From positions 124,001 to 188,000 of the forward strand of contig NZ_JAAMOW010000004.1 in assembly GCF_011067135.1 (NCBI RefSeq): 64,000 nucleotides of DNA, given 5' to 3'. The translations under genes were made by a program, and so were the position numbers. This document shows positions 2,348-32,332 of the stretch, one piece after another (the stretch's first letter is position 1; each line of letters starts with the position of its first letter). Source of the stretch: Solimonas terrae. Its GTDB lineage: Bacteria > Pseudomonadota > Gammaproteobacteria > Nevskiales > Nevskiaceae. The notes under the pieces are model-generated. The model saw only the letters and a program-made list of their open reading frames with translations, did no database searches and was not told the origin of the DNA.

Positions 2348-3631
2348 ATGACTGCAAGCGTAGCCGCAGCGAGCCGTGTCGAAATCGACGGCAAGATCTT
2401 CAATCCGTATTCCAAAGACTTCATCCGCTCGCCCTGGGACACCTGGAACCGCCTGGTCGCGGACTATCCCGTGGCCTGGCACAAGGACCTGCAGATGTGG
2501 GTCGTCAGCAGCCACGACGCGCTGATGGAAATGCTCAAGGACAACCGCTTCTCGACCAGCTACATGCACTGGGAGCATGCGCCGCCGCCCAAGCCTTTCG
2601 AGCAGCAGAACCATTTCGAACGCGCGATCGACGCCGGCCTGTTCGTCGTCGATCCGAAGAACCACCTGCGCCTGCGCAAGCTGACGATGCCGGCGTTTTC
2701 CAAACCGGTGATGGGCAAGATCGACGCCAAGATCCGCGACCTGATCGTGACCTGCTTCGACGAGATCGGCACGCCCGACGAATTCGATGCGTTCTCGATG
2801 ATCGCCGAGAAGCTGCCGGTGCGGTCGATCGCGCGCATGGTCGGTGTGCCGACCAACATGGAGACCTTCTTCCATGACTTCGCCGTCAACGTCGTCAAGT
2901 CGACGCGCATCAATCTGCCGGCCAGGGAACGCGAGAAGTCGATGCAGGACACGCTGCCCGGCTTCCAGTATTTCCTCGATCTGATCAGGGAACGCCGCGA
3001 AGCCGCGCACCCGGGCGACGACTTCATCGGCAGTCTGGTATCGGCATCGGACAACGGCGATACGCTGAACGACTACCAGATCGTCTCGATCATCCAGGCG
3101 GTGATCGTCGCCGGCTCCGACACCGCGACCGATCTGCACACGTACGCAATCAAGGGCCTGCTGAGCAATCCGCAGCAGTACGCACTGCTGCGCGAGAAAC
3201 CCGAGCTGATGGAGAACGCGATCATCGAACTGCTGCGCGTCGGCGCGTTCGGCAAGACGCCGCAGTTCCGCTTCGTCACCGAAGACATCGAATGGCGCGG
3301 CCAGCAGTTCAAGAAAGGCCAGTCGATCCTGCTCAATCTCACTGCCGCGTGGATCGATCCGGCGAAGTGGGAAAACCCGATGCAGCTGAACATCGAACGC
3401 CGCCTCGACGGCAACCTCGTGTTCGGCGCCGGCGCGCACTTCTGCATCGGCACCTACCTCGTGCGCGTGCAGGGCGGCCTGATGATCCAGGAATTGATGA
3501 AGCGCTTTCCGGATGCCGAGCTGGCCGACGGCGACGGCCACATCGACTACGACTACAACCACCACAACGCGCGCCGCATCAACCGGCTGATCGTCAAGAC
3601 CAACGTCGCTGCGCAACGCAAGGCTGCGTAG
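2348..3631 (+). CDS. Cytochrome P450 monooxygenase (first of three)
   Basis: This 427-residue soluble bacterial P450 has the oxygen-binding I-helix sequence AGSDTATD, the K-helix ExxR as ELLR, and the haem loop FGAGAHFCIG with the thiolate Cys at about residue 366. The start ATG at 2348 follows a GAGGAG sequence with good spacing. A second P450 begins 35 bp after its stop, so the two are probably co-transcribed. The substrate cannot be read from sequence; steroid or alkyl hydroxylation is inferred from the neighbourhood. It needs a ferredoxin partner, and a 2Fe-2S ferredoxin is encoded at 25701. Confidence 0.95.
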   Translation: MTASVAAASRVEIDGKIFNPYSKDFIRSPWDTWNRLVADYPVAWHKDLQMWVVSSHDALMEMLKDNRFSTSYMHWEHAPPPKPFEQQNHFERAIDAGLFVVDPKNHLRLRKLTMPAFSKPVMGKIDAKIRDLIVTCFDEIGTPDEFDAFSMIAEKLPVRSIARMVGVPTNMETFFHDFAVNVVKSTRINLPAREREKSMQDTLPGFQYFLDLIRERREAAHPGDDFIGSLVSASDNGDTLNDYQIVSIIQAVIVAGSDTATDLHTYAIKGLLSNPQQYALLREKPELMENAIIELLRVGAFGKTPQFRFVTEDIEWRGQQFKKGQSILLNLTAAWIDPAKWENPMQLNIERRLDGNLVFGAGAHFCIGTYLVRVQGGLMIQELMKRFPDAELADGDGHIDYDYNHHNARRINRLIVKTNVAAQRKAA

Positions 3632-3666
3632 GCACACCGTCACTGCACCCGAAACGAGATCGCCCC

Positions 3667-5082
3667 ATGAATACCGCCGCCCCCGCCGTCGCGCCCGACA
3701 TCACCACTGCTCCGCGTCCGCCGATGGTGCGCGGCCTGCCGCTGATCGGCAGCACGATCGAGATGGCCGCAAGCCCGGCGAAGTTCTTCGCGCGCTGCTA
3801 TCGCGATTACGGCTCGGCGTTTCGCGTGCGCGTGTTCGGCAATGATCTGACCGTGATCGCCGGAGCCGAAGCGGCGACCTTCATGGGCACGCGTGAAGGC
3901 AAGGAATCACTGCGCTCGAAGGAAGCCTGGGAGCCGCTGGTCAAGGAATTCGGCGCCTCGAAGATGCTGACCGCGGTCGACGGCGAGCTGCACAAGCAGA
4001 TGCGCGCGGTGATGAAGCGCGGCTTCTCCAAGGAATCGATCAAAGGCCGCTATCAGGAAGTGCTCGACATCACGCGCACGGCGCTGCTGCGCGACTGGCA
4101 GCCGGGCAGGAAGGTGCCGGTGGTGCAGGCGATGCAGTACCTCGTCGTCGAACAGCTCGGCATGGTGCTGACCGGCCAGACGCCGCGCGAATACGTGCAG
4201 GACATTCGCACGACGATCCTCTACATCCTCAATGTGCTGGTCACGCGCCAGCGCCCGAAGTTCTTGATGAAGATGCCGAAGTACAGGCGCGCCAAAGCCC
4301 GCATGTTCGAGCTCGGCCATCAGATGATCCGCCAGTACGAGCAGCGCATCGCCTCCGGCGGCGCGACGCCCGAGGAATACAAGACGCTGATCGACGATGT
4401 CATGGAAGCGCATCAGCGCGATCCGGACCTGGTGCCGAAGGGCGATCTGGTGATGCTGATGACCGGCCCGTATGTCGCCGGTCTCGATACCGTGGCGAAC
4501 ACGACCTCGGCGATCGTCTACACCGTGCTCAAGCATCCGGACGTGCTCAAGCGCATCCACGCCGAAGTCGATGCGCTGTACGCGAAAGGCCGGCCGGTCG
4601 ACGAAGAGCAGTTCATGAAGGACCTGCCGGTGCTCAACGGCGCGATCATGGAGACCATGCGGCTGTACCCGATCGCCGTTGCGCAGATCCGCACGGCCAA
4701 CAAGGACTTCGTGTTCGGCGGCCATCTGATTCGCGAAGGCGAGATGATCTATCTCGGCACGGCCGTGCCGCATTTCCAGAACGAGTTCTATCCCGACGCC
4801 GGCAGCTTCGACGTCGATCGCTACGCCAAGCCGCGCGCCGAGCACATGCAGATCGGCGCGTATTCGCCATACGGTCGCGGCCATCACACCTGTCTCGGCA
4901 AGAGCCTCGCCGAAGTGCTGCTGGCGATGACGATGGCCGAGGTGTTCCACAACTTCGATCTGGCCCTCGAGTCGCCCGACTACGAGCTGAAGACCAAGAC
5001 CGCGCCGACGCCGGGTCCGGCGATGAGCTTCAAGGTCAAGGTCCTCGGCCGCCGCACGCCGAGTCTTGCGCCTGCGGCATGA
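3667..5082 (+). CDS. Cytochrome P450 monooxygenase (second, long type)
   Basis: The protein is 471 residues, longer than the first P450 and of a different subfamily. It starts with a proline-rich stretch followed by RGLPLIGS, as in microsomal-type P450s that lost their membrane anchor. The I-helix reads AGLDTVANT, the K-helix ExxR is ETMR, and the haem loop is PYGRGHHTCLG with Cys near residue 409; the usual Phe of this loop is Tyr. The start at 3667 is the first Met after the preceding gene. The style recalls CYP51/CYP7-like sterol P450s more than camphor-type ones, but this family placement is a guess by eye. Confidence 0.92.
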   Translation: MNTAAPAVAPDITTAPRPPMVRGLPLIGSTIEMAASPAKFFARCYRDYGSAFRVRVFGNDLTVIAGAEAATFMGTREGKESLRSKEAWEPLVKEFGASKMLTAVDGELHKQMRAVMKRGFSKESIKGRYQEVLDITRTALLRDWQPGRKVPVVQAMQYLVVEQLGMVLTGQTPREYVQDIRTTILYILNVLVTRQRPKFLMKMPKYRRAKARMFELGHQMIRQYEQRIASGGATPEEYKTLIDDVMEAHQRDPDLVPKGDLVMLMTGPYVAGLDTVANTTSAIVYTVLKHPDVLKRIHAEVDALYAKGRPVDEEQFMKDLPVLNGAIMETMRLYPIAVAQIRTANKDFVFGGHLIREGEMIYLGTAVPHFQNEFYPDAGSFDVDRYAKPRAEHMQIGAYSPYGRGHHTCLGKSLAEVLLAMTMAEVFHNFDLALESPDYELKTKTAPTPGPAMSFKVKVLGRRTPSLAPAA

Positions 5083-9676: not shown

Positions 9677-11044
9677 ATGGACCTGAAAAACGCTTTCGCA
9701 TTCGTCGCTTGCGGGACGATGCTGGCGCTGGCTTCGACAAGTGCGATGGCCGCGGTGTCGGCTGCCGAAGCCGCGACACTGGGCGGTGACAGGCTGACCT
9801 GCAACGGCGCCGAGAAAGCCGGCAGCCCGGCCGGCGTTGCGCAATGGACCGGAAAGTTCCACGGCACCTGGCCCGGCGTGAAGGAAGCGTCCGGCTATGT
9901 CCCGGGACCGTACGCGAATGAAAAGCCGCTGTTCACGATCACCGCCGACAACATGACGCAGTACGCGGACAAGCTCAGCGAGGGCGAGCAGGCCCTGCTG
10001 AAGAAATATCCGAAGTCGTATCGCATGAATGTCTATCCCAGCCATCGCGACTTCGACGATGCGCCGGACACCTGCGAGAAGGCGAGGAAGAATGCGGTCA
10101 GTGCCGAAATCGTCGACGACGGCAAAGGCCTCAAGGGCATCGCCGGGGCGATTCCGTTCCCGATCACCAAGAGCGGGCTGGAGGCGATCTGGAACGTCAG
10201 CAACGCCGGACGCGTCTACACCGAGCAGGCGATCTGCGATATCGCCGATGTCTACGCCGGCGGTGCGGTGGCCTGGGGCCGGCAGAACTTCCGCGTGCTG
10301 GTCGACAACAACAAGCCGGACCGCGAACACACTTACAGCGAGCAGTTCACGGCGCACTTCTATACCGGCTACCTGCTGCCGGAACGCGATCGCGGCTTTG
10401 TCGCGGTCGGGTTCCAGCCGAACAACTACACCAGTGCGGCAACGCAGTCCTGGCAATACCTGCCGGGCACGCGCCGCGTGCGTCAGGCGCCGGAAGTCGG
10501 CTTCGACTATCCGGTGCCGCCCGCGGGCTTCCGCACGGTCGATGACGATTACGGCTTCAACGGTTCGCCCGAGCGTTACACCTGGAAGCTGGTCGGCAAG
10601 AAGGAAATCTACATTCCGTACGACAACTTCAGGATCAATGATCCAGCGGTGAAGTACAGCGAGCTGATCAAGCCGGACACGGTCAATCCGGATTATCTGC
10701 GCTACGAACTGCATCGCGTGTGGATCATCGAAGGCACGCTCAAGCAGGGCTTCCGCCACATCTACGCGAAGCGCCGCCTGTACGCCGACGAAGACACCTG
10801 GCTGGTCTCGCTGGCCGACAACTACGACGCGCGAGGCGCGCTCTGGCGCGTGCCGCTGATCACCTATCACTACTCGCAGGAGGGCCACGCCTGGCACCGC
10901 GGCGTGTCGATCTATCACGACCTCAACGCCGGCACCTACGAAGCCGGCTATCTGGTCAATGAAAGCCGCAAGTGGTGGCAGATCAACCGGCCGATGTCGC
11001 CTGCCGAATTCACGCCGGACGCGGCGGCGCGATCCGGGCATTGA
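9677..11044 (+). CDS. DUF1329 family outer-membrane/periplasmic protein, copy 2
   Basis: The 455-residue protein has the same length as copy 1 and shares long identical blocks with it, such as FDYPVPPAGFRT, KPDTVNPDYLRYELHRVWII and VPLITYHYSQEGHAWHRGVS. The signal peptide ends near TSAMAAV and the start ATG follows AACGAGGAGGAG. The conserved LGGDRLTCNGAEKAG box starts the mature part. The two copies probably arose by duplication and lie either side of a P450 and the LuxR gene. Function is unknown beyond the family's association with degradation of hydrophobic compounds. Confidence 0.93.
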   Translation: MDLKNAFAFVACGTMLALASTSAMAAVSAAEAATLGGDRLTCNGAEKAGSPAGVAQWTGKFHGTWPGVKEASGYVPGPYANEKPLFTITADNMTQYADKLSEGEQALLKKYPKSYRMNVYPSHRDFDDAPDTCEKARKNAVSAEIVDDGKGLKGIAGAIPFPITKSGLEAIWNVSNAGRVYTEQAICDIADVYAGGAVAWGRQNFRVLVDNNKPDREHTYSEQFTAHFYTGYLLPERDRGFVAVGFQPNNYTSAATQSWQYLPGTRRVRQAPEVGFDYPVPPAGFRTVDDDYGFNGSPERYTWKLVGKKEIYIPYDNFRINDPAVKYSELIKPDTVNPDYLRYELHRVWIIEGTLKQGFRHIYAKRRLYADEDTWLVSLADNYDARGALWRVPLITYHYSQEGHAWHRGVSIYHDLNAGTYEAGYLVNESRKWWQINRPMSPAEFTPDAAARSGH

Positions 11045-12918: not shown

Positions 12919-14829
12919 TCAGAAGTTGTACTTCACCGTCAGCCCGATGTTGTCGCGATCCGCATACGGATTCGCTCGCAGGTCGGGCTTGCCGAAGAAG
13001 CCGCTGTACTGCACGCCGAAGGTGAGCTTTTCGAGATAGGTCATGTAGGCGCCGACGCCGAAGCGCTTGTCGTGCGGGCCCATCAGTGCACCGAAGCCGG
13101 ACAGCAATGAGCTTTGGCCGTTGATCATCTGCGAGTAGCTGACCGGCATCGACAGATCCCAGCCGGAGATCACGTTGTTGCGATTGATGATGGCGAGCGT
13201 CGAGATGGCCGAGGCATCGCGGGTGTAGGTGAGCTGCTTCGTGCAGCTGGTCGGTCCGCAGCCGGCGTCGTTGTCGGCGACATGGATGAAGCCGCCTTCG
13301 CCGACGACCGACAGCGAGTCCCAGAACAGGCCCGGCCCGAACGAATAGATGCCGGACATCAGGCCCTGGTAGATCTTCGAGCGCACCGGCGTCGGCACCG
13401 GGCCGAGCAGACCGCCGTCGACATCGACCAGCACATCGGCGCCGTCGCGATAGATTGCCTCGCCGGCGACGTTGACGCCGAACAGCGATGTCGAAAAGCT
13501 CAGGCCGGCGAGGTGGATGCCGCCGAAGTAGTGCACGTTGTAGGTGACGGGCACCTTGAGATTGAGGATCTGCGTGGTGACCAGCGGCGGCACGCCGTCT
13601 GTGCCGCCGACCAGCGGTGCATATCCGTAGTTCTGCACCGGCGCCGGCGTGGTGCTGTGGTAGCGCAGCCAGTACAGGCCGATGTTGGTCACCGGCGTCA
13701 CCTGGTATTTCAGGCCGATGCCGTATTGGCCGGCCCAGCTCGGACGCTTGTCCGGGCCGCGTTGCACATTGATGTAGCGCGGCGTGCCGGGTTGGCTGAG
13801 CTGGCCGACCGGCACCGGCACGTCGGGCAGGATCGCATCCAGACCGTTGAGTATCTGTCCGGCTGCCGCAGTGAGGCCGCCGACCGGCAGGTTCGGGGCG
13901 AGCGCGCTGAGGCCGAGGTTGACGAGATCGACGGCATCGCTGGACAGCACATTGAAGTCGCTGTAGCTGGCCAGATAGAACGGATTGTCGAGGCCGTAGA
14001 TGAATTCGGCGCCAGGACCGACGACATCGGTCACGGAAAAATATTCGCCGACCGGATCGAGCTCGGTCGGTTTGAAGGCCAGCTTGTACTGCCCGAGCAG
14101 CGTCCATTGGTCGTTCAGCGACAGCTGCATCGAGAGCTGGTTGACCGGCAGCAGGATGCTCTTGACGTCCGCGCCCGGCACATTGGCCTTGGTCGCGTCG
14201 GCCGGACCCTGCGCCAGCGCGATACCGTCGAAGAACAGGCTCTCGCCCCAGGCCGCGACCTGCTGGCCGAGGCGCAGGCTCAGCACGGTTTCGTCGCCGA
14301 GATACCAGGTCCCGAAAATGTAGGCATCGAGCAGGCGCGCGCGCGCCCCGTCGTAGTACTGCGCCTTGCCGCTGAACTCGTTGTAGGCGCCGTCGGTCTT
14401 GCTGATCGTGTCCGGTGAATCGTTGTCGTTGCGGTGCCGATAGGCGTCGTCGTAGAACGCATCGCCGCGCAGCTCGACGCCGAAGTCGTTCTTGCGCAGA
14501 AGAAGCTCGCCCAGCGTCGTGATGCGATTGTCGACCATCGCGCCTTTCTTGAAATTGCGATTGCCGTCGTCGTAGTTCGCCGACTCCGGAACCTTGAAGT
14601 ATTCCGGCACGGGAATGCTTGCGGCGCCCGGTGCATCGATCAGCCGCCGATCCGGACTCTGCAGGCGCCACGCCGCGGAGTAGGTGGCCGAGAACTGCGT
14701 CTCGGCGTCCATGCCGAACAGGTCGAACGATGCGGCGCTCGCCGTTCCGATGCCGTCCGCGGCGAGCAGCAGCGCCGTTGCGACGGCGATCCGCGACGAA
14801 CGATGGCGATGCTCCCCGTGAGATGCCAT
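12919..14829 (-). CDS. DUF1302 family outer-membrane beta-barrel protein
   Basis: The protein is 636 residues from the ATG at 14829, which has AAAGGGGAGA just upstream; a longer frame to 14916 lacks a plausible signal. A basic N-terminus and hydrophobic core end at TASAASFDLF, a signal peptide. The rest is amphipathic strands, starting TQFSATYSAAWRL and ending in a terminal Phe (TVKYNF), the classic signature of outer-membrane barrels. LRLGQQVAAWGESLFFDG is a typical DUF1302 block. DUF1302 proteins accompany DUF1329 proteins in steroid and hydrocarbon clusters and are thought to help move hydrophobic substrates; this is association, not proof. Confidence 0.9.
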   Translation of the reverse strand: MASHGEHRHRSSRIAVATALLLAADGIGTASAASFDLFGMDAETQFSATYSAAWRLQSPDRRLIDAPGAASIPVPEYFKVPESANYDDGNRNFKKGAMVDNRITTLGELLLRKNDFGVELRGDAFYDDAYRHRNDNDSPDTISKTDGAYNEFSGKAQYYDGARARLLDAYIFGTWYLGDETVLSLRLGQQVAAWGESLFFDGIALAQGPADATKANVPGADVKSILLPVNQLSMQLSLNDQWTLLGQYKLAFKPTELDPVGEYFSVTDVVGPGAEFIYGLDNPFYLASYSDFNVLSSDAVDLVNLGLSALAPNLPVGGLTAAAGQILNGLDAILPDVPVPVGQLSQPGTPRYINVQRGPDKRPSWAGQYGIGLKYQVTPVTNIGLYWLRYHSTTPAPVQNYGYAPLVGGTDGVPPLVTTQILNLKVPVTYNVHYFGGIHLAGLSFSTSLFGVNVAGEAIYRDGADVLVDVDGGLLGPVPTPVRSKIYQGLMSGIYSFGPGLFWDSLSVVGEGGFIHVADNDAGCGPTSCTKQLTYTRDASAISTLAIINRNNVISGWDLSMPVSYSQMINGQSSLLSGFGALMGPHDKRFGVGAYMTYLEKLTFGVQYSGFFGKPDLRANPYADRDNIGLTVKYNF

Positions 14830-14866
14830 CGGCTTCTCCCCTTTCTTATAGTGGAACGCTGCGCCC

Positions 14867-14905
14867 ACATTAGGAGTCCGGCATGACGCCGGGCCTCCCT
14901 CAAAC
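14867..14905 (-). promoter_or_regulatory. Recurring motif and possible promoter of the DUF1302 gene
   Basis: On the minus strand GTTTGAGGGAGGC (14905-14893) is followed after 20 bp by TAATGT (14872-14867), the same layout as upstream of the DUF1329 genes. The motif ends 64 bp before the start codon. Confidence 0.4.
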
Positions 14906-14932
14906 AAGGTAGTCATGCAGCAAGAAACATTT

Positions 14933-14995: not shown

Positions 14996-15364
14996 ATGCT
15001 CAAGAAATACGACCGCGAAAAAGGCGTCGAATGGTTCAACGAGGTCTACGCCGGCGACGTGCAGCTGCCGCCCGGCGACGGCGGTCCGTTCATCGACTTC
15101 ATGCTCGAAACCCTGTTCGGCACCGTGTGGGCGGACGAAACCCTGTCGCTGCGCGATCGCCGCCTGCTGCTGATCGGCGCGATCACGGCGCTGGGCGATG
15201 CGACGACGCTGGAAATCCAGATCCGCGCCGCGCTGAAACGCGGTGAGCTGCGTGCCGACCAGCTCGATGCGCTGTCGATCTTCCTGACGCAGTACGTGGG
15301 CTATCCGCGCGGCTCGCAGCTGTTCCGGATCGTGTCGACGATCCGGGCGAACCCCGGCGCCTGA
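14996..15364 (+). CDS. Carboxymuconolactone decarboxylase (CMD/AhpD-like) family protein
   Basis: This is a 122-residue all-helical protein. LSLRDRRLLLIGAITALGD followed by IQIRAALKRGEL is the usual CMD-family core, and the length fits a single CMD domain. The AhpD CxxC redox motif is absent, so a peroxidase role is unlikely. CMD-like proteins recur in steroid and aromatic catabolic clusters with unclear roles. The ribosome-binding site (AGGGCGA) is weak, but the promoter at 14933 supports this start. It is divergent from the DUF1302 gene. Confidence 0.82.
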   Translation: MLKKYDREKGVEWFNEVYAGDVQLPPGDGGPFIDFMLETLFGTVWADETLSLRDRRLLLIGAITALGDATTLEIQIRAALKRGELRADQLDALSIFLTQYVGYPRGSQLFRIVSTIRANPGA

Positions 15365-15438
15365 GCGCCTTGCCGAGCGGGTGCGACGGCTTTTTGCGGT
15401 GGCGGTGTGCGCTCGGTCACCGTCTGGCGGGCTGCCGA

Positions 15439-15468
15439 TTGCCGGGCGGGGCCGAAAAGCCATATAAG
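15439..15468 (+). promoter_or_regulatory. Possible sigma-70 promoter of the FecR operon
   Basis: TTGCCG and TATAAG are separated by 18 bp. They lie about 150 bp before the first gene of the three-gene block at 15621-17687, so a long untranslated leader is implied. Confidence 0.35.
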
Positions 15469-15620
15469 GATGCCGGGGATCCGCAGCATGCGCCGGGTCC
15501 GGCGGCGTCATCGCCGCCGGGACACCGGTTCGGGAGCGGGGGCGTCCGCGGGCATCGCCGGCACCGAGCGTGCGGTGCGATGAACGATCTATCGTTGCAA
15601 ACGCGAACCGGAGCGGCTTG

Positions 15621-16400: not shown

Positions 16401-16443
16401 GCCCGGGCCCCGTGACTGCCAACGATCGACAGGATTCGACATC

Positions 16444-17259
16444 ATGCAGATAACCATTCGTGCTTCGCTGTTCGCAGCCCTGCTGCTCGGGGTGTCGCTG
16501 AACGCGGCCGCTCAGACGCAGAGTGCGTCCTACGCCACGGCGTCCGGCAGCTATGCCTACGGCGAGCAGCAGCAGACCTACGGCTACGCCGGCTCCACCT
16601 TCGGCTCCCCGCTCGCATTCGGTGCCAGTGGCGGCGCAGTCGGCGTCGGCGTATTCGCCCTGCGCGACGGCAGCCGCAACGGCAACGGTCACTTCGACGA
16701 CGGCAGTGCCGGCATCACGCTCGGACTCGGCGATCCGTCGCGCTATGTCGGCCTCGAAACCAGCGTCGGGCTGTCCTCGCTGACCGGACACAACGGCGAC
16801 GGCTTCGGCAAGGCGGGCTCGTTCGCATTCAAGCTGCACACCGAGTTGCCCGGCTCGGCATCATTCGCGCTGGGCGTGATCGACGTGGCGCCCTGGGGCG
16901 CCGCCGATGGCCCGAACAGCGCGAGCGTCTACGTGGCAGCGGCCAAGGTGTTTCCGCTGACACTGTTCGGCAGTCGTTACGCACTGGTCGGCAACGTCGG
17001 CATCGGCGACAACCAGTTCACGCACTCGACGCGTGGCAGCAGCCCGTTCGGCAGCCTCGCGTTCTTCTTCCGGCGCCAGGTGTCGCTGATCGTCGACGAC
17101 TCCGGGCGCTTCCTCAATGCCGGCGTCTCGGTTGCGCCGTTCGAACATGTTCCGCTGTCCTTCACGCTGGGGGCCTTCAACCTCGGGCGCGAAGAGGGTC
17201 TGAAGACCGGCATCGCCGGATCGGTCGGCTTCGGCTACGACCTGAGCCGGTTCTGGTAA
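16444..17259 (+). CDS. Probable outer-membrane beta-barrel protein
   Basis: This 271-residue protein has a signal peptide ending at LNAAAQTQ. The mature part is Gly-rich with alternating hydrophobic residues (AVGVGVFALRDGSRNG, YALVGNVGIGDNQF, LSFTLGAFNLGREEG) and ends in an aromatic residue (YDLSRFW), as expected of an outer-membrane barrel. I do not recognise a named family. It lies 43 bp after the FecR gene and 11 bp before the next gene, so the three are probably one operon at the cell surface. Confidence 0.7.
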   Translation: MQITIRASLFAALLLGVSLNAAAQTQSASYATASGSYAYGEQQQTYGYAGSTFGSPLAFGASGGAVGVGVFALRDGSRNGNGHFDDGSAGITLGLGDPSRYVGLETSVGLSSLTGHNGDGFGKAGSFAFKLHTELPGSASFALGVIDVAPWGAADGPNSASVYVAAAKVFPLTLFGSRYALVGNVGIGDNQFTHSTRGSSPFGSLAFFFRRQVSLIVDDSGRFLNAGVSVAPFEHVPLSFTLGAFNLGREEGLKTGIAGSVGFGYDLSRFW

Positions 17260-17270
17260 TGGGAGGCGCC

Positions 17271-17687
17271 ATGAAAATCATCCGCATCGTGTTGTCGGCA
17301 GCCGCGTTCGGTGCACTGAGCACGCTGGCGTGGGCGCAGAACAGTGGCAGTGGCGGTGCTTCGGGGTCCTTGCCCGGCGGCACCGGGGTCGACAGCGGTG
17401 TGCAGTCGATGGGCGAGATTTCCAGCAAGTCGTCGCGGGGTCTGGCCGGCGGCCTGGAATCCGTGTTCGGCGGGCTGACCATCCTCGGCGGGCAGGGCGT
17501 CGGCGATCGCGTCGGTGCCGACTTCGCGCTGCTCGGCGACGATGAGGGCACCGACGACTACGTCATCCTCACGCTTGCCGACGACGGCCAGCCGGTCAAG
17601 GTCGTCGTCCATCAACTGAAGATCGTCAGCATCGATCCGGTCGCGCCGATCTCGGTCGCCGTCCCGATCGCAAACGCCTGCAGCTGA
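17271..17687 (+). CDS. Small secreted protein of unknown function
   Basis: The protein is 138 residues from ATG 17271; an in-frame ATG at 17259 overlaps the GGGAGG ribosome-binding sequence and was rejected. A signal peptide ends at TLAWAQN. A Gly/Ser-rich stretch is followed by LAGGLESVFGGLTILGGQGV, an acidic loop LGDDEGTDD, and a beta-rich end YVILTLADDGQPVKVVVHQL. A single Cys is the second-last residue. No family recognised. Its place after FecR and barrel genes suggests a secreted or periplasmic partner. Confidence 0.65.
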   Translation: MKIIRIVLSAAAFGALSTLAWAQNSGSGGASGSLPGGTGVDSGVQSMGEISSKSSRGLAGGLESVFGGLTILGGQGVGDRVGADFALLGDDEGTDDYVILTLADDGQPVKVVVHQLKIVSIDPVAPISVAVPIANACS

Positions 17688-17742
17688 CGCGGTTCGTCGC
17701 AGCCCGGCACCCGGCGCGCGGATCGCGCAGCCGGGTCGGCAT

Positions 17743-17760
17743 GTCTCCCTCAAATGAGGG
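17743..17760. promoter_or_regulatory. Palindromic copy of the recurring motif
   Basis: CCCTCA-AA-TGAGGG (17747-17760) is a perfect palindrome with a 2-bp centre. Read on the minus strand it gives ATTTGAGGGAGAC, matching the motif of the other operons. It lies 70 bp upstream of the sterol-isomerase-like gene. Confidence 0.4.
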
Positions 17761-17830
17761 CCGCGATGATCGCCCGTTGCCTTGAGCATGGGCGCAGCCG
17801 GCACGTCGACCGGCGCGGGGAGACGCGACG

Positions 17831-18670
17831 ATGACACTGCCGGGCTACTGGTTCTCGAAGAATCCGGACAAGGCCTGGGCCGAGAAATTCTTTCTCGCCT
17901 TCGTGCCGGTGTTCGGCATTTACAACTACATCGTGCTGTCCAACGGGCTGCTCGACACCGGCAACTTCTGGAACGTCGTGCAGAACCTGCTGATGTGGGT
18001 TCCGTACTGCGTGCTGCTGCCGTGGTGGCTGCGCCGCAACAGTGGCGTGCCGTGGCGGCGCAGCTACTGGTTCAAGTACAACGTCTACATGTTCGTCTAC
18101 GTCTTTTTCATGACGTACTTCGGCACGGAGTACTTCTTCGATGTACTCGGCATCCGCTATCGCTTCCCGCACGTCAGCTGGTATTTCGACTCCGCGCTGC
18201 TCGGCCCGGACGAAGCGAGCGCGCTCGCGAGCTTCCGCAAGGTGCCGCCCAGCATGTACCTCAACGCGGTGGCGTTCTTCATCGTCTATCACACGATCGC
18301 CGTGGTGCTGATGCGCCGCGTGCGGACGATGACGACCGCAGCTGCGCCCTGGTTGCGCGGCCTGCTGTGGGTGGTCACGGTCGCCGCCGCGGCGTATTTC
18401 TTTGCCTGGGCGGAAACCTACTTCTACGTGTCGTCGTCGCAGATGTCGCGCGCCAACGTCTGGTATGTGGACATCCCGCGCATGCTGTCGATCGGCTCGG
18501 CCTGCTACGCGCTGTATTTCATCGTCAGCTTCCCCAACGTTTACCGTCTGGACGAGGATTCCGCCCGGCCCTGGACGATCTCGCGCGCGGCACTCGAAGC
18601 TTCGGCGGTCAGCATGATCGTGCTGCTGCTGCTCGATCTGTTCACCTGGATCGTCGGGCCGATCGCCTGA
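17831..18670 (+). CDS. Cycloeucalenol cycloisomerase-like membrane protein
   Basis: This 279-residue polytopic membrane protein resembles plant cycloeucalenol cycloisomerase (CPI1), which opens the 9,19-cyclopropane ring of phytosterol precursors. From memory of the plant protein, several blocks correspond: NPDKAWAEKFF (11-21), YWFKYN (79-84), FGTEYFFDVLG (97-107) followed by RYRFP, FFAWAET (190-196), YALYFIVSFP with RLDED (226-243), and SRAALEA near the end before LLLDL..GPI. About six or seven hydrophobic segments are present. The ATG at 17831 follows GGGGAG. It stands alone between a motif palindrome and a terminator. Homology is fairly clear; the reaction in this bacterium is unknown. Confidence 0.75.
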   Translation: MTLPGYWFSKNPDKAWAEKFFLAFVPVFGIYNYIVLSNGLLDTGNFWNVVQNLLMWVPYCVLLPWWLRRNSGVPWRRSYWFKYNVYMFVYVFFMTYFGTEYFFDVLGIRYRFPHVSWYFDSALLGPDEASALASFRKVPPSMYLNAVAFFIVYHTIAVVLMRRVRTMTTAAAPWLRGLLWVVTVAAAAYFFAWAETYFYVSSSQMSRANVWYVDIPRMLSIGSACYALYFIVSFPNVYRLDEDSARPWTISRAALEASAVSMIVLLLLDLFTWIVGPIA

Positions 18671-18696
18671 GCCGACGCGCCAGGCAGCTTCGGTGG

Positions 18697-18726
18697 AACG
18701 GCCCCTGACGGGGCCGTTTTCGTTTT
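18697..18726 (+). terminator. Rho-independent terminator
   Basis: A perfect 9-bp stem AACGGCCCC/GGGGCCGTT with a TGAC loop is followed by TTCGTTTTCG. It ends the isomerase-like transcript. Confidence 0.8.
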
Positions 18727-20503: not shown

Positions 20504-22057
20504 TCATGCCGTCCGCAGTGCCGCGTGGCGACCGCCGCGGCGGCCGAAATAGCTCGCGTCGCCGACCGAAACCCCGCTGCCGATGTACGGCCCGACCGGA
20601 ATGCCGGCACTGGTGCGGCCGGCCGCATACAAACCGGGAATCACCTCGCCGAATGCGTTGATGACCTGCGCATCGGTGTTGGTCTGCAGACCGCCGAAGG
20701 TGTGGACCGGCGCGAACACGTTGCCGACCGACAGGTCGTAGGCGGTGAACGGCGCTGCGGCCAGCGGCGCGTTGAAGTGATCGACCTTGTGCAGCAAGGG
20801 GTCCTGACCGTCCTTCGCGTGACGATTGTAGTAGTCGACGGTCTGCGTCAGGGCGCCAGGCGGCATTTTCAATTTCGTTTCGAGTGCATCGATGCTGTCG
20901 GCAGTCGCCGCAACCGGCAGGCGGAAGTCGTCCCAGCCGAAGGCAATGTCCTTGTCGGCGATCAGCCACGCGCGGCCGTTCTGATGGAAGGTGATCTCGT
21001 GACCGAGCAGGCCGTAGTAGCCGTCTTCCGGCACGAAGCGCTGGCCCTTGTCGTTGACGATGATGCCCTTGACGATGGATTCCGGCGGGTAGATCGGAAT
21101 CACCACGAAACCCTGATTCATGCGCAGCACCGCGCCGCCCGCCGCCATGCCCATCTGGATGCCGATGCCGAGATCGCCGGCGCGGCCCCAGGGCGCCGAG
21201 CAGGACGCGAGTTCGGGCGCGAACCGTTCCAGCATCGGCCGGTTGTGAATGAAACCGCCGGCAGCGAGCACCACGCCGCGTCGCGCGCGGATGTTCAGCC
21301 GTTTGCCGCCTTCTTCGACGATCGCGCCGGAAATGCTGCCGTCGGATTCGACGATCAGCCGTTCGGCGGAAACCTTCAGCTTCAGCGTCGCACCGAGCTT
21401 CAGCGCGGAAGCGGTCAGCGCCGCCATCAGATCGCGGCCGCCGATCAGATGCGGCGACGGCGGCACGTGGCCGCGCGGCGCCGGCTTGATCGTGTCGCGG
21501 TACGGCCAGACGCGCTCGCTGCCCGAGAAATACAGCGAGCCGTCGGGAATCGAGATCTCCTTTTCATTGGAGAACTTCTGCGCGTAATGCACGCCGTTGG
21601 CCACCAGCCAGTCGAAGTGCGCGACGCTGTTCTCGCAATAGAGCTGAATCTTGTCGGGCGAGGCGTGCAGACCGCTGGCCGCCGTCATGTAGTCATGCAT
21701 GGCCTCGACGCTGTCGTCGAAGCCGAGCGCCTTCTGCAGGGCCGTGCCGCCGCCGCAATAGCAGACGCCGCCGGAAAGGCTCGATGAGCCGCCGGGAATA
21801 TGGAATTTCTCGATCACCAGCGCGTCGGCGCCGGCGCGACGCGCTTCGATCGCCGCGGCGATGCCGGCCGCGCCGGAACCGACGATCAGCACGTCGGTCG
21901 CCGCGTCCCAATGGCGGACCTCGCTGCGCTTCGCCGGCGTCGCCGCCGACAGATCGAAGCTCGCAGCAGTGGTCGCGGCAGCAGCCGAAGCCATCGCCAG
22001 CCTGCGCAGGAAATCGCGACGGCCACCGGTCGCCGGCGCGTCATGCTCGTTCATCAT
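20504..22057 (-). CDS. Tat-exported FAD-binding dehydrogenase (KstD/fumarate reductase fold)
   Basis: This 517-residue flavoprotein belongs to the FAD_binding_2 family. The N-terminus has a twin-arginine signal (RRDFLRRLAM then an Ala-rich core), so it is exported folded. The dinucleotide site is VLIVGSGAAGIAAAIEA, followed by GGSSSLSGG. ARRGVVLAAGGFIHN and the end HTFGGLQTNTDAQV...GLYAAGRTSAGIPVGPYIG complete the fold. Relatives include 3-ketosteroid delta1-dehydrogenases and flavocytochrome c. With the cytochrome c just downstream, a periplasmic dehydrogenase passing electrons to a cytochrome is inferred. Rubredoxin and Rieske genes lie upstream in the same direction. Confidence 0.85.
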   Translation of the reverse strand: MMNEHDAPATGGRRDFLRRLAMASAAAATTAASFDLSAATPAKRSEVRHWDAATDVLIVGSGAAGIAAAIEARRAGADALVIEKFHIPGGSSSLSGGVCYCGGGTALQKALGFDDSVEAMHDYMTAASGLHASPDKIQLYCENSVAHFDWLVANGVHYAQKFSNEKEISIPDGSLYFSGSERVWPYRDTIKPAPRGHVPPSPHLIGGRDLMAALTASALKLGATLKLKVSAERLIVESDGSISGAIVEEGGKRLNIRARRGVVLAAGGFIHNRPMLERFAPELASCSAPWGRAGDLGIGIQMGMAAGGAVLRMNQGFVVIPIYPPESIVKGIIVNDKGQRFVPEDGYYGLLGHEITFHQNGRAWLIADKDIAFGWDDFRLPVAATADSIDALETKLKMPPGALTQTVDYYNRHAKDGQDPLLHKVDHFNAPLAAAPFTAYDLSVGNVFAPVHTFGGLQTNTDAQVINAFGEVIPGLYAAGRTSAGIPVGPYIGSGVSVGDASYFGRRGGRHAALRTA

Positions 22058-22282: not shown

Positions 22283-23479
22283 TCAGGCCGATACGGATTC
22301 GGCCTCCTGGGCGGCGATGACCTCGGCCTGCCGGTCACGCAGGTCATGCACCGTCCACTCGTGATTATGGTTGTGCAGCGGTTTCGGCAACTTCGCACGA
22401 TCGGTGTAGAACTGCGCATACCAGCGCCGCAGCTTGGCGATCGGGCCGTCATTCGCGCACAGCATCGGTTCCGCGCGATAGAGCTTGCGCTCCCAGATGT
22501 AGACGTCTTCCATGAAGGCCTGGTACGAGGCCTCGCAATAGCCCTGCGCGGCCATTTCCAGCGCCTCCGGCGGAAACTCCGCGGCATTGGCCTTGACGAT
22601 GACGCCGAACCAGTATTCGAGCGTGTTCTCGTCGATCGGACACCAGGCGGTGAGGATCGCCGAATCGAACTGCTGCGAATCCTGCGTCTGCCAGGTGTAC
22701 TGGTAGGACGGGCCGTGGCTGATCGAGCGCACGTAGAGCTTGTCGTCCTGCACGTCGGCGGCCAGGCGCGTGTGCGTGCCCCACATCAGCTCGCCGGTCA
22801 TGTGGCCGTTCCAGACCGGCAGCCATCGATCCACGTCATAACCGTGGATCGGCAGCAGATGGCCCTTGTCGACCGTGTTCTCGATCACTTCGCGCGGGTG
22901 CGTCCTGATCGTGATGCGGAAGCGTCGCCAGCCTTTCGTCCAGCCCTGCGAATCGGCGGCGCCGGCCGGGAAGAAGTCGGCGAGCGGCGGAATCTCGTAG
23001 TCGGGCTCGCCGAATTCCGGATCGAACCAGATCAGCACCGTGTCGTTCATCTCGCGCGTGGCGAACGAGCGCGTCTTCGCCCTGGCCGGGATCTTGTCGC
23101 AGTACGGAATCTTCACGCAGGTGCCGGCGCCGTTGTACTGCCAGTTGTGGAACGGGCACTGCAACTCGTTGCCGATCACCTTGCCGGCCGACAGATCGGC
23201 GCCCAGATGCGGGCAGAACGCGTCGAGGCAGCGCACCGAACCGTCTTCGCCGCGATAGAACGCCAGGCGCATGCCGAAGTAGTCGCGCGGCACGACTTCA
23301 CCGGCCGGGAACTCGTCGCTCCAGCCGACCATGTGCCAGCCGCGTGCGTAGCGCGGCGAGCCGTCCGCGAGGCGCGGGATGGTCTGCAGATTGCGTTGCA
23401 CGGTGGCGGCGGATGAGCGCTTTAGCGTGTCCGCTGCGTAGTTGAGATCCCCGCCGTGTCGCTGTTCGTCGCCCATCAT
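22283..23479 (-). CDS. Rieske non-haem iron oxygenase, KshA/Neverland-like
   Basis: The protein is 398 residues. The Rieske cluster ligands are Cys89, His91, Cys108 and His111 (CPHLG...CPFHNW). The mononuclear iron site is visible at Asn201/Asp204/His207/His212 (ENTVDKGHLLPIH). The sequence after the cluster (GTCVKIPYC..IPARAKTRSF) resembles 3-ketosteroid 9-alpha-hydroxylase oxygenase (KshA) and the sterol 7,8-desaturases of the DAF-36/Neverland group. KshA would open ring B; a desaturase would act on an intact sterol. The sequence alone does not separate these. AAGGAG precedes two tandem ATGs, so the true start may be 23476. No KshB-like reductase is adjacent. Confidence 0.88.
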   Translation of the reverse strand: MMGDEQRHGGDLNYAADTLKRSSAATVQRNLQTIPRLADGSPRYARGWHMVGWSDEFPAGEVVPRDYFGMRLAFYRGEDGSVRCLDAFCPHLGADLSAGKVIGNELQCPFHNWQYNGAGTCVKIPYCDKIPARAKTRSFATREMNDTVLIWFDPEFGEPDYEIPPLADFFPAGAADSQGWTKGWRRFRITIRTHPREVIENTVDKGHLLPIHGYDVDRWLPVWNGHMTGELMWGTHTRLAADVQDDKLYVRSISHGPSYQYTWQTQDSQQFDSAILTAWCPIDENTLEYWFGVIVKANAAEFPPEALEMAAQGYCEASYQAFMEDVYIWERKLYRAEPMLCANDGPIAKLRRWYAQFYTDRAKLPKPLHNHNHEWTVHDLRDRQAEVIAAQEAESVSA

Positions 23480-28656: not shown

Positions 28657-30596
28657 GCAGGATGATGCGCGGGTGCCTGGCGTCGGTGCTGATCCTGGCC
28701 GCCTGCATTGCGCGCGCGGAATCCGGTGACGGCATTGCGCAATGGCCGCAGATCGGCAACGAGATCGGCGGCGCGCGCTATTCGCCGCTGACCGCGATCG
28801 ACAGGCACAACGTCAGCCGTCTCAAGCCGAAGTGGATTTATCACCACGGCGACTTTTCGAAAGGCGAAAACGGCGTCGGCGCCACCGCCTTCGAGGTGAC
28901 GCCGCTGATGATCGATCGCACACTGTATTTCTGCACGCCGTACAACCGCATCGTCGCGCTCGATGCCGCCAGCGGCGCTGAACGCTGGACCTACGATCCG
29001 CATGCGAATCTGACGCACATCTACTCGAAGGTCTGTCGCGGCGTCGCGTATTGGCAGGACTCGCAGGCCGATGCCGGCGCGGCCTGCGCGACGCGCATCT
29101 TCGAAGCCACGCTCGACGATCGCCTGATCGCCGTCGATGCGAAGACCGGCAAGCCCTGCGACGCCTTCGGCGCGCACGGTGCAGTGAATCTGCTGCACGG
29201 CCTCGGCGAGGTTCGCGAATCCGAGTACTACCCGACCTCGGCGCCGCTGGTGATCGATGGCGTCGTGCTGACCAATGCCTTCGTCAAGGACAATCAGCGC
29301 ACGACGGCGCCGGGCGGCGGTATTCGCGCCTGGGACGCGCGCACGGGCGTGCTGCGCTGGGTCTGGGATTCCGTGCCACCGAACATGCACGCGGTAACGG
29401 CCGCGGAGGTCGAGCAGGGCGCGACGCTGACGCCGGGCACGCCCAATTCCTGGGGCCTGATGTCGGCCGATCCGGAACATCATCTGGTGTTCGTGCCGAC
29501 CGGCAGCGCCGCGCCGGATCATTACGCCGGTGCCGAGCGCAAGGGCCTGAGCTATTACGGCGAGTCGGTGGTCGCGCTCGACTCGCGCAGCGGCGCGGTG
29601 CAATGGCATTTCCAGACCGTGCATCACGATCTCTGGGACTACGATCTGGCCGCGCAGCCGGTGACCTATCTGCACGATGGCAAGACGCCGGCGCTGATCG
29701 CCGCGACCAAGCTCGGCTTCGTGTTCCTGCTCGACCGCTTGACCGGCAAGCCGCTGTTCCCGGTCGAGGAACGCAAGGTGCCGGCCTCGACGGTGCCGGG
29801 CGAGCAGGCCTCGCCAACGCAACCGTTCCCGACCCGGCCGGCGCCGCTGCATCCGCTGACACTGAAACGCGACGATCTCTGGGGCCTGACGTTCTGGGAC
29901 AAGGGCAAGTGTCGGGACGCGCTCGATGCGCTCGACTATCGGGGCGTGTTCACGCCGCCGTCGTTGCAGGGCACCCTGGAATATCCGGGCCTGGGTGGCG
30001 GCATCAACTGGGGCTCGGTGTCGGTCGATCCGGTGCATCGCCGCATGATCGTCAATCTGCAGACCGCGCCATTCACGATCAAGCTGGTGCCGCGCGCGCA
30101 GTTCGACGGCGCGATGAAAGGCGGCGATCTGGTCGCCGTCGGCCCGCAGGAGGGCACGCCCTATGTCGTCGTCCGCGGGCCGTTCCTGTCGCCGCTGAAG
30201 ACGCCGTGCGTGGCGCCGCCCTGGGGCAAGCTGGTGGCGATCGATCTCGATACCGGCAACAAGCTCTGGGAGCGCCCGCTCGGCAATCTGCACGGCATGG
30301 CGCCATTCGGTGATCACTTCCATACCGGCACGCCGAATTCCGGCGGCTCCATGCAGACCGCGAGCGGTCTGGTGTTCATTGCCGCGACCATGGATGCCTA
30401 CCTGCGCGCCTTCGATGCCGACAACGGCGACGAGCTGTGGCGCACCGAACTGCCGTTCGGTGGGCATGGCGTGCCGATCACGTATCGACTCAAGGCCGAC
30501 GGTCCGCAGTATCTCGTGATCGCCGCCGGTGGTCATGGCGCGCTCGGCGATGCAGTCGGCGATGCCGTGGTCGCGTTCACGCTGGACGGAAAGTGA
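28653..30596 (+). CDS. PQQ-dependent dehydrogenase (quinoprotein glucose dehydrogenase-like), periplasmic
   Basis: The protein is 647 residues with an export signal, MRGCLASVLILAACIARA, whose LAAC could also be a lipobox. Beta-propeller blades follow, with blocks such as WPQIGNEIGGARYSPL, TPLMIDRTLYFCTPYNRIVALDA and FQTVHHDLWDYDLAAQP, typical of membrane-type glucose dehydrogenase relatives that lack the N-terminal membrane domain. PQQ-linked oxidation of an alcohol or sugar outside the membrane is expected; the substrate is unknown. No PQQ synthesis genes are present in the window. It overlaps the upstream gene by four bases and is followed 2 bp later by the KstD-like gene. Confidence 0.88.
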   Translation: MSRMMRGCLASVLILAACIARAESGDGIAQWPQIGNEIGGARYSPLTAIDRHNVSRLKPKWIYHHGDFSKGENGVGATAFEVTPLMIDRTLYFCTPYNRIVALDAASGAERWTYDPHANLTHIYSKVCRGVAYWQDSQADAGAACATRIFEATLDDRLIAVDAKTGKPCDAFGAHGAVNLLHGLGEVRESEYYPTSAPLVIDGVVLTNAFVKDNQRTTAPGGGIRAWDARTGVLRWVWDSVPPNMHAVTAAEVEQGATLTPGTPNSWGLMSADPEHHLVFVPTGSAAPDHYAGAERKGLSYYGESVVALDSRSGAVQWHFQTVHHDLWDYDLAAQPVTYLHDGKTPALIAATKLGFVFLLDRLTGKPLFPVEERKVPASTVPGEQASPTQPFPTRPAPLHPLTLKRDDLWGLTFWDKGKCRDALDALDYRGVFTPPSLQGTLEYPGLGGGINWGSVSVDPVHRRMIVNLQTAPFTIKLVPRAQFDGAMKGGDLVAVGPQEGTPYVVVRGPFLSPLKTPCVAPPWGKLVAIDLDTGNKLWERPLGNLHGMAPFGDHFHTGTPNSGGSMQTASGLVFIAATMDAYLRAFDADNGDELWRTELPFGGHGVPITYRLKADGPQYLVIAAGGHGALGDAVGDAVVAFTLDGK

Positions 30597-30598
30597 AG

Positions 30599-32332
30599 AT
30601 GGGCGAGCCCGGGCCGGATCACGAGGTCGATGTACTGGTCGTCGGTTCCGGTGCCGGCGCGATGACCGCGGCGCTGCGGGCCGCGCATGCCGGTGCCAGC
30701 GTGCTGATCGTCGAGAAAGCCGCCGTCTACGGCGGCACCTCGGCGACCTCCGGCGGCGGCCTGTGGATTCCCGGCAATCACCTGATGGCCGACTGCGGAA
30801 TCGAGGACAGCGACGCCGACGCGATGCAGTACATGGCGCAGCTGGTCGGTGAAGATGCCCCCGCCGCCAATGTTCGAGCCTTCGTCACGCAGGGCAAGCG
30901 CATGTTGCGCTGGCTGACCGAGCACAGCCATGTCGCGTATCAGGCGATGTCGTATTACGCCGATTACTACCAGCATCTGCCCGGTGCGAAGACCGGCGCC
31001 CGCTCGATCGATCCGCTGCCGTATCACGCCGGCGTTCTCGGCCGCGACTTCCACGACATGCAGGCGCCGCACATCCAGACGCGCGTGCTCGGCATGATCG
31101 GTTACAGCAACAGCGAGGGCGCGATCCTGCTCAGCAAATCGCCCGGCTGGTTCAAGCTGCTCTGCAAGCTGACGATCGGCTATTTCCTCGATCTTCCCTG
31201 GCGTCTGCGTTCGCGGCGCTCACGGCGACTGACGATGGGCAATGCCCTGATCGGCCGCCTGCGTCGCTCGCTGCTCGATCGCCGGGTGTCGATCTGGCTG
31301 CGTGCGCCGGTGAAGCGCCTGATCACCGATGCCGCCGGCGCCGTTGTCGGTGTCGAGATCGAGCGCGACGGCGCCCGCCGGACGATCCGCGCGACACGCG
31401 GCGTGATCCTCGGCAGCGGTGGCTTCGAGCACAACCAGGCGCTGCGCACGCGCTATCTGCCGCAGCCGACGCAGACGCACTGGTCGGCGGCCAGCCCGGG
31501 CAATACCGGCGACCTGCTGATCGAAGGCCAGCGCCTCGGCGCCGCCACACGCCTGCTCGATGAGGCATGGTGGGGGCCGACGATGCACGTCCGCGGCGAG
31601 GATCGCGCGCGCATGTTGTTCACCGAGCGCTCGATGCCGGGTGCGATCGTCGTCAACAAGAAGGGGGCGCGCTTCTTCAACGAGTCGGTCGCCTACACCA
31701 CCGCGGTGCAGGCGATGTACGCGGCCGGCAATCTGCCGGCCTATCTGATCTTCGACGCCCGCTACGCGCGTGAATATCCGTTCGGTCCGCTGCTGCCCGG
31801 TGGCATGCATTTGAACTGGCTGCAACTGCGCCACATCCGTCGCGAATTGCTGACGACCGCGCCGAGCCTGGCCGCGCTGGCCACGCGGCTCGGCATCGAC
31901 GCCGACGGTCTGGCGGCCGGTGTCGCGCGCTTCAACGGCTTCGCGGTGAGCGGAAAAGACGAAGACTTCCAGCGCGGCGAGAATCCCTACGATCTGCTGT
32001 ATGGCGACGCGCGCGTGCAGCCGAACCCCTGCCTCGCGCCACTGGCAGAAGCGCCGTTCCACGCGCTGGAAATCCATCCGGGCGACATCGGCACCAAGGG
32101 CGGTCTGGCAACCAACGAGCATGCGCAGGTCCTGCATGTGAACGGTCGGCCGATCGCCGGGCTCTACGCAGTCGGCAATGTCGCCGCCTCGGTGACCGGC
32201 CGCTACTACCCGGGCGCGGGCGCGACGCTGGGGCCGGCGATGACCTTCGGCTTTCTCGCCGCCGAGCACGCGTGCCGCGATCTGTTGGAAAATGGCGGGG
32301 CGGAAACCGACCGCATCCCCCAACGAAACTGA
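30599..32332 (+). CDS. FAD-binding dehydrogenase, 3-ketosteroid delta1-dehydrogenase-like
   Basis: This 577-residue cytoplasmic flavoprotein starts at ATG 30599, 2 bp after the previous stop. The FAD site is VDVLVVGSGAGAMTAALRAA, then GGTSATSGGGLWIPGN. The C-terminal sequence GRYYPGAGATLGPAMTFGFLAA matches the KstD signature, where a Tyr and a Gly four residues later (Y-P-G-A-G) lie in the active site. KstD introduces a 1,2-double bond into ring A before ring cleavage. Unlike the flavoprotein at 20504 it has no Tat signal. The TetR gene begins 4 bp after its stop. The family is sure; steroid specificity is likely but not proven. Confidence 0.85.
   Translation: MGEPGPDHEVDVLVVGSGAGAMTAALRAAHAGASVLIVEKAAVYGGTSATSGGGLWIPGNHLMADCGIEDSDADAMQYMAQLVGEDAPAANVRAFVTQGKRMLRWLTEHSHVAYQAMSYYADYYQHLPGAKTGARSIDPLPYHAGVLGRDFHDMQAPHIQTRVLGMIGYSNSEGAILLSKSPGWFKLLCKLTIGYFLDLPWRLRSRRSRRLTMGNALIGRLRRSLLDRRVSIWLRAPVKRLITDAAGAVVGVEIERDGARRTIRATRGVILGSGGFEHNQALRTRYLPQPTQTHWSAASPGNTGDLLIEGQRLGAATRLLDEAWWGPTMHVRGEDRARMLFTERSMPGAIVVNKKGARFFNESVAYTTAVQAMYAAGNLPAYLIFDARYAREYPFGPLLPGGMHLNWLQLRHIRRELLTTAPSLAALATRLGIDADGLAAGVARFNGFAVSGKDEDFQRGENPYDLLYGDARVQPNPCLAPLAEAPFHALEIHPGDIGTKGGLATNEHAQVLHVNGRPIAGLYAVGNVAASVTGRYYPGAGATLGPAMTFGFLAAEHACRDLLENGGAETDRIPQRN

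Follow-up and report, generated by a model that had tools for sequence, protein, structure and literature searches.

The gene at 17831-18670 of the 64-kb stretch of Solimonas terrae DNA analysed here (the window, bases 124001-188000 of contig 15) belongs to a bacterial gene family made up of several clades, whose members have recurrent neighbours and recurrent companions elsewhere in their genomes, among them genes of steroid breakdown. We put at about even the chance that its product is a CPI1-family isomerase of the sterol nucleus, probably one that opens 9,19-cyclopropyl rings, at work in sterol degradation. CPI1, the cyclopropyl sterol isomerase or cycloeucalenol cycloisomerase, is biosynthetic in plants; it protonates the cyclopropane, and a proton is lost to give a delta-8 sterol. 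Why would a bacterium that takes steroids apart keep such an enzyme? The 9,10-seco route opens the steroid nucleus through 9-alpha-hydroxylation, which a 9,19-ring blocks, and a degrader of cyclosterols therefore needs an enzyme that opens that ring.

The original prediction spoke of a polytopic protein of 279 residues, and it holds on both counts: the frame at 17831-18670 runs exactly, on the plus strand, from ATG to TGA, and an AlphaFold2 model built with 21 sequences (pLDDT 82.6, pTM 0.84) has seven long helices. On this model the product is predicted to lie in the membrane as an integral protein, which its helices cross several times. GGGGAG precedes the ATG, and the GC contents of 52, 43 and 90% at the three codon positions are the coding signature of its own genome, where the gene is single copy. 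It is a real conserved gene, since 20 further loci, confirmed out of 47 candidate stretches, encode relatives that are 57-86% identical to its product. The closest is that of Solimonas soli (86%); the others include S. variicoloris, S. flava, Hydrocarboniphaga, Nevskia MAGs and Litorivivens, and also Spongiibacteraceae, Halieaceae, Myxococcota/Deltaproteobacteria MAGs and one Rhodospirillales MAG. Searches with the protein gave nothing over cut-off in Pfam (the best was Pet100, E 0.77) and no match in NCBIfam or among PDB sequences. The Foldseek comparison proposed with the original prediction was run with the model against the PDB and returned noise (best E 1.6), with no solved fold resembling it; a missing match of this kind does not in itself speak for a difference.

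The surroundings had been described as P450 and steroid genes, and the window indeed holds three P450s, a Rieske/KshA_C gene, an FAD oxidoreductase and a KstD-like gene (Table 1).

Table 1. Features of the window around the CPI-family gene (positions are those of the window).
Feature	Position	Strand	Basis or remark
Cytochrome P450	2348..3631	+	domain match
Cytochrome P450, matched from about residue 143 onwards	3292..5082	+	domain and PDB match
Second DUF1329 protein	5355-6722		domain match
Cytochrome P450	6772..8010	+	domain match
DUF1329 protein	9677..11044	+	domain match
DUF1302 protein	12919..14916	-	domain match
Carboxymuconolactone-decarboxylase-like small protein	14996..15364	+	domain match
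Palindrome CCCTCAAATGAGGG	17747..17760	.	about 70 bases upstream of the 17831 start
CPI-family protein, clade a, polytopic, seven long helices predicted	17831..18670	+	ORF, alignment, AlphaFold2 model, tree
Intrinsic-terminator-like hairpin, 11 pairs, T-rich tail	18695..18720	+	just 3' of the CPI gene
FAD-dependent oxidoreductase of the PRK07121 type, only remotely like KstD	20504..22057	-	model scores
KshA-like Rieske oxygenase paralogue	22283..23479	-	Rieske and KshA_C domains
KstD-like flavoprotein	30437..32332	+	581 bits, under the model cut-off of 789

The Rieske gene product scores over the Pfam cut-offs for both the Rieske (79.8 bits) and the KshA_C (176 bits) domains and is KshA-like by both; its 9-alpha-hydroxylase activity is putative. 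The FAD oxidoreductase reaches 530.8 bits against the PRK07121-type model (cut-off 481), and 187 bits against the KstD model, where the cut-off is 789. For the second P450 of Table 1, the best PDB match is a CYP51, at 123 bits only, and a 76% identical relative sits just downstream of the CPI gene in Hydrocarboniphaga (L005/L055). In 10/10 other Nevskiales clade-a loci examined, CPI comes directly after the carboxymuconolactone-decarboxylase-like gene, with 3-242 bp between the matches; in the window the two are 2.47 kb apart, with three ORFs between. These ORFs, in 15365-17830 (about 2.5 kb), are a FecR-like ORF at 15570-16400 and two that have no Pfam match.

How close is the protein to the plant enzyme? 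Against an unverified copy of the Arabidopsis CPI1 sequence (the CPI1 copy below) it is 29% identical over 280 columns, at full length, with E 5e-33, and this alignment supports the predicted homology in so far as the copy stands for the plant sequence. The letters of the copy were set down before clades b, c and d entered the analysis, and yet, in a listing of 15 bacterial rows, its best identities are with clades b2 (36%) and b1 (34%), while the three clade-a rows reach 27-32%. The blocks YWFKYN, FGTEYFFDVLG, YALYFIVSFP, SR..LEA and LLLDL..GPI, on which the original prediction was based, are all found in the 279-aa translation. The window protein and the CPI1 copy have in common their length, their polytopic build, the collinear order of these conserved blocks and 14 columns that are identical in 50/50 aligned rows, the CPI1 copy included (E18, P26, Y96, F102, Y110, F150, Y153, R162, E195, T196, G222, Y226, F230 and P235). 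They differ in that identity is about 30%, in roughly 16-20 further residues that the window protein has after YRFP, and at residue 100, which is Glu in the window protein and His in the CPI1 copy. This Glu is found in 39/39 clade a/b rows, and the His in 4/10 clade c/d rows. The window protein also differs from plant CPI1 in being bacterial, from a host genome in which no oxidosqualene cyclase match was found. We take CPI1, which opens cyclopropanes, to be the closest characterised relative of the bacterial family.

Published pathways assign CPI to the cycloartenol routes of plants and some protists (PMC8172173, PMC12667688), and a plant pathway legend places it just before CYP51 (PMC12667688). 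Among the literature matches listed, all from sources outside the subscription journals, no paper described a CPI1 homologue in a bacterium, and a literature search on Solimonas and steroid degradation found no paper. Public protein databases may already carry CPI names for such bacterial proteins. A search of viral contigs with the CPI1 copy for a eukaryotic-type sequence found none.

The tree was built from 50 rows, those of clades a, b1, b2 and c/d with the plant CPI1 copy. Clade a, with 28 rows including the window protein (support 100/100), stands on a stem of 1.77 changes per column and is found in Nevskiaceae, Halieaceae, Spongiibacteraceae and Myxococcota; one genome (G296), which has CPI only in pieces, was put in clade a through its neighbour gene. 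Clades b1 (6 rows, from the window's order) and b2 (5 rows, Myxococcota) are together the sister of a (97/91), and c/d is a diverse set of 10 rows from 9 genomes. As for the phylogeny proposed as a check on the original prediction, it attaches the plant row basally to a+b by a long branch, and the place of this unverified sequence is therefore unsure. A profile of the window's clade alone (A1) finds relatives in 18/85 genomes of the window's order and, in a sample of the class, in 1/274 genomes, namely the window genome itself, so rare a gene that the class-wide survey is uninformative. A profile of both near clades (A2) finds relatives in 19/235 Myxococcota genomes (the phylum of G366) and in 8/140 Halieaceae genomes (the family of G371). 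Since the family is widespread among bacteria, a bacterial enzyme may be the ancestor of plant CPI1, or the two may have a common origin, and the family bears on the origin of a eukaryotic sterol enzyme.

Do the genomes that carry the gene break sterols down or make them? KshA_C is found in 18/18 CPI genomes of the window's order vs 28/67 others (Fisher p 4e-6, kinship ignored), and in the Myxococcota sample in 17/19 CPI genomes vs 74/216 others (p 3e-6, kinship again ignored), where the two CPI genomes that lack it are of clade c. In Halieaceae the link is not significant (8/8 vs 88/132, p 0.056). All 35 of the clade a/b genomes tested have KshA_C, counting G296 and G733, the latter with a partial CPI match. 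The window genome has two further KshA_C genes, one of which lies 47-55 kb to the left of the window together with a gene like HsaA (373 bits against a cut-off of 450) and one like KstD (596 bits against 788). Oxidosqualene cyclase (OSC), recognised by motif, occurs in 1/40 clade a/b genomes overall, and in 1/19 of those beyond the window genome and its 20 relatives (G387). Breakdown fits better than synthesis because KshA is present in 35/35, and OSC in 1/40, of these clade a/b genomes. The link to sterol or steroid breakdown that had been predicted is supported by gene content and by neighbours, among them the dedicated KshA paralogue of clade a described below.

At 11/11 loci of sister clade b, at most about 3 kb upstream of CPI and on the same strand, a P450 is encoded that carries the CYP51 I-helix motif AGHHTS, and one of these P450s matches CYP51 structures at E 1e-189, with residues 15-561 aligned to the 551-residue chain 6mcw. 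A CYP51 profile run over the order scores above 550 bits in 6/85 genomes. They represent six genera in three families and coincide exactly with the genomes that have clade-b CPI (Fisher p 2e-9, kinship ignored); the next score is 215 bits. With the same profile CYP51 is absent from the order's clade-a genomes, among them the window genome, whose best P450 scores 160.8 bits. In 5/6 b1 (Nevskiales) loci CPI has an extended SDR of the epimerase/3-beta-HSD kind for a near neighbour, and a small SnoaL-like protein is encoded beside CPI in 5/6 b1 and 3/5 b2 loci, its gene at L143 being divided between two frames; its SnoaL match is weak (E 0.001, under cut-off). An NTF2-type 8,14-sterol reductase (8,14-Bsr) is reported to be found often with CYP51 in proteobacteria, mycobacteria and myxobacteria (PMC13277303). 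Clade-b CPI loci likewise hold CYP51, and in 8/11 of them also the small protein, whose weak SnoaL match is such as an NTF2-type 8,14-Bsr might give; it may be a candidate 8,14-Bsr. The available part of that report does not mention a CPI homologue (PMC13277303).

Several side observations concern these CYP51 genes. Four of the six in the order (L045, L047, L049, L050) encode C-terminally extended proteins of 563-578 aa, long enough to be candidates for a C-terminal ferredoxin-type fusion like that of the Methylococcus enzyme. The CYP51 gene of the clade-b genome G339 is in two pieces. One genome of the Myxococcota sample (G506), in which no cyclase match was found, has two CPI copies, L138, of clade d, beside a P450 with the CYP51 motif, and L139, near a SnoaL-like gene.

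On the reading we prefer, that of a ring-opening isomerase, the sterol nucleus would be protonated near C-9/C-19 and a neighbouring proton would then be lost; on a 9-beta,19-cyclopropyl sterol, these two events would open the cyclopropane. Candidates for the proton relay are the acids E18 and E195 and the tyrosines Y96, Y110, Y153 and Y226. In clade b, CPI together with CYP51, often the SnoaL-like protein and, in 5/6 Nevskiales loci, the SDR would make up a set for the removal of 4- and 14-methyl groups. What the sequences show directly is the gene, its bacterial family and clades, its neighbours and its co-occurrences; the substrate, the reaction and its catabolic direction are what we infer, and with them a reaction in clade a unchanged from that of clade b and CPI1. 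The role in cyclopropyl sterol use that was originally predicted is plausible, and the strict CYP51 linkage of clade b speaks for it; clade a is divergent, however, and the window genome has no CYP51. Counting against the preferred explanation are the unverified plant sequence, the long branch of clade a, the missing CYP51, Glu100, the lack of a solved fold like the model, the non-significant KshA link in Halieaceae, and, considered below, the H..V motifs of the OSCs and the two HGWPI genomes that have no CPI.

It is possible, with a likelihood that we set somewhat short of even, that steroid degraders own a catabolic copy of the middle part of the plant phytosterol pathway, consisting of CPI and, in the sister clade, CYP51 and often an SDR. 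Through it plant and algal sterols, whether cycloartenol-type or 4-/14-methylated, would be made edible for the 9,10-seco pathway. If true, this would show a way in which cyclosterols, like other sterols that are biosynthetic intermediates, could be mineralised by microbes, and it would offer a gene set ready for steroid bioconversion. The CYP51-linked branch of the CPI family occurs in organisms that give no sign of making sterols, and some bacteria may trim the unfinished sterols of plants and algae as a first step in feeding on them.

Might the family have another chemistry? An isomerase of this kind could shift a nuclear double bond of ordinary sterols, delta-8 to delta-7 or 8(14), as an analogue of EBP, and we regard this as unlikely, though it is the alternative to be taken most seriously. 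HGWPI, with its His, is the OSC motif typical of cycloartenol synthase, and Val at the other motif place is typical of lanosterol synthases. Of the Myxococcota genomes whose CPI homologue is partial or belongs to clade c/d, 9/10 have an OSC-motif cyclase, vs 1/9 of those with clade a/b (p 0.001, kinship ignored), and the motif is H..V, not HGWPI, in 8/9 of them and Y..V in the ninth (G503). The 17 cyclase loci that have an OSC motif divide into 10 in CPI genomes and 7 in genomes without CPI, a count in which 8/35 cyclase loci without a clear motif are left unclassed and to which some cyclase matches, lacking a locus, do not contribute. Two genomes with HGWPI cyclases have no CPI homologue. Most OSCs of Polyangiaceae and Sandaracinaceae are reported to be lanosterol synthases, and Myxococcaceae are reported to make cycloartenol without further modification (PMC12004948), which could explain the two HGWPI genomes if they are of that family. 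With the mixed H..V motif, the products of the OSCs that accompany clade c/d are putative.

Against a double-bond shift stands the absence of any EBP/EXPERA likeness in sequence or fold: no Pfam match to EXPERA/EBP was found up to E 1 and no PDB sequence match, and EBP is absent among the best 50 Foldseek matches listed. The cyclopropane-opening reaction of CPI1 also stands against it. Moreover, a bacterial sterol cluster carries a separate homologue for C-8 isomerisation (PMC10202945). Because OSC accompanies the clade c/d genomes but rarely the clade a/b genomes, the family seems to fall into lineages carried by sterol makers and others carried by degraders. Around clade c/d genes, 10 neighbours were scanned (5/10 loci), and these included one SDR and no other sterol gene. 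At L132 (G594 contig 237) an OSC lies about 12 kb from the CPI homologue, a candidate biosynthetic pair.

A further question is whether clade a, to which the window protein belongs, has gone its own way. Its branch is very long, so that reaction or substrate may have changed, and the protein could isomerise or bind another steroid or triterpenoid, in company with a dedicated Rieske oxygenase and P450s, and no longer act on cyclosterols. Its partners speak for such a change. A KshA paralogue 73-94% identical to that of the window is present in 12/12 clade-a genomes of the order, G296 included, on the CPI contig and within 16 kb in 10 of them and on other contigs in two, against at most 39% identity to it among 43 further KshA-type ORFs, in a comparison that covered these 12 genomes and the KshA-type ORFs of the stretches examined. 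The same twelve are the only ones of the 85 whose KshA_C score falls at 173.9-187.7 bits (Pfam). The P450 partners vary, and the CYP51 of clade b is absent from the clade-a genomes of this order. Yet clade a keeps the 14 universal residues; two of its 28 rows, both Halieaceae (L150, L151), still have a CYP51 at a distance of about 3.5 kb; and an SDR as in b1 follows CPI directly downstream in 10/28 rows (Myxococcota, Halieaceae, Spongiibacteraceae and Litorivivens). No CYP51-motif P450 was found near CPI in the other 26 rows, several of whose loci are short contigs. On balance a clade a of altered function seems to us rather improbable.

A Rieske oxygenase and an extended SDR near CPI are reminiscent of C-4 demethylation by SdmA and SdmB, which likewise employs this pair. 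The neighbours are not SdmA/SdmB, however, because they score far below the curated cut-offs of NF052579/NF052578: the Rieske proteins reach 48-70 of 600 bits, and the genome's other KshA has the same 50 bits. The SDRs reach 70-113 of 600 bits and do better with the HpnA epimerase model, at 117-180 of 368. Adjoining the Litorivivens CPI locus (L010 6628-7845) is a histidine kinase gene whose product resembles ethylene receptors in its N-terminal domain (PF25487), and a clustered relative of it is found in L021.

That the bacterium makes its own sterols, with CPI as one step, as the biosynthetic role of the plant enzyme and the co-occurrence of clade c/d with OSC might suggest, is very improbable and for the window host largely refuted, as its genome has no cyclase match, the cyclases matched in 3/21 genomes (the window's and its 20 relatives') all have the squalene-hopene motif DxDDTA, and in Myxococcota the one clade a/b genome with an OSC is G387.

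The preferred isomerase gene was also expected to have a motif and a terminator of its own, and it has the palindrome CCCTCAAATGAGGG on its 5' side and the terminator-like hairpin on its 3' side (Table 1). The palindrome has one match within the window, where 0.14 would be expected with up to 3 mismatches, and it recurs with one change 5' of the CPI gene in L003 and L004; it is possibly a regulator site. Terminator-like sites number 3 in the 64-kb stretch, against 1.1 expected. A search for sigma-70-type promoters found none. Elsewhere in the window, the ORF at 8218-9420 on the minus strand has a weak match, below cut-off, to a PucR/LuxR-type helix-turn-helix, and its product is a possible regulator of the region.
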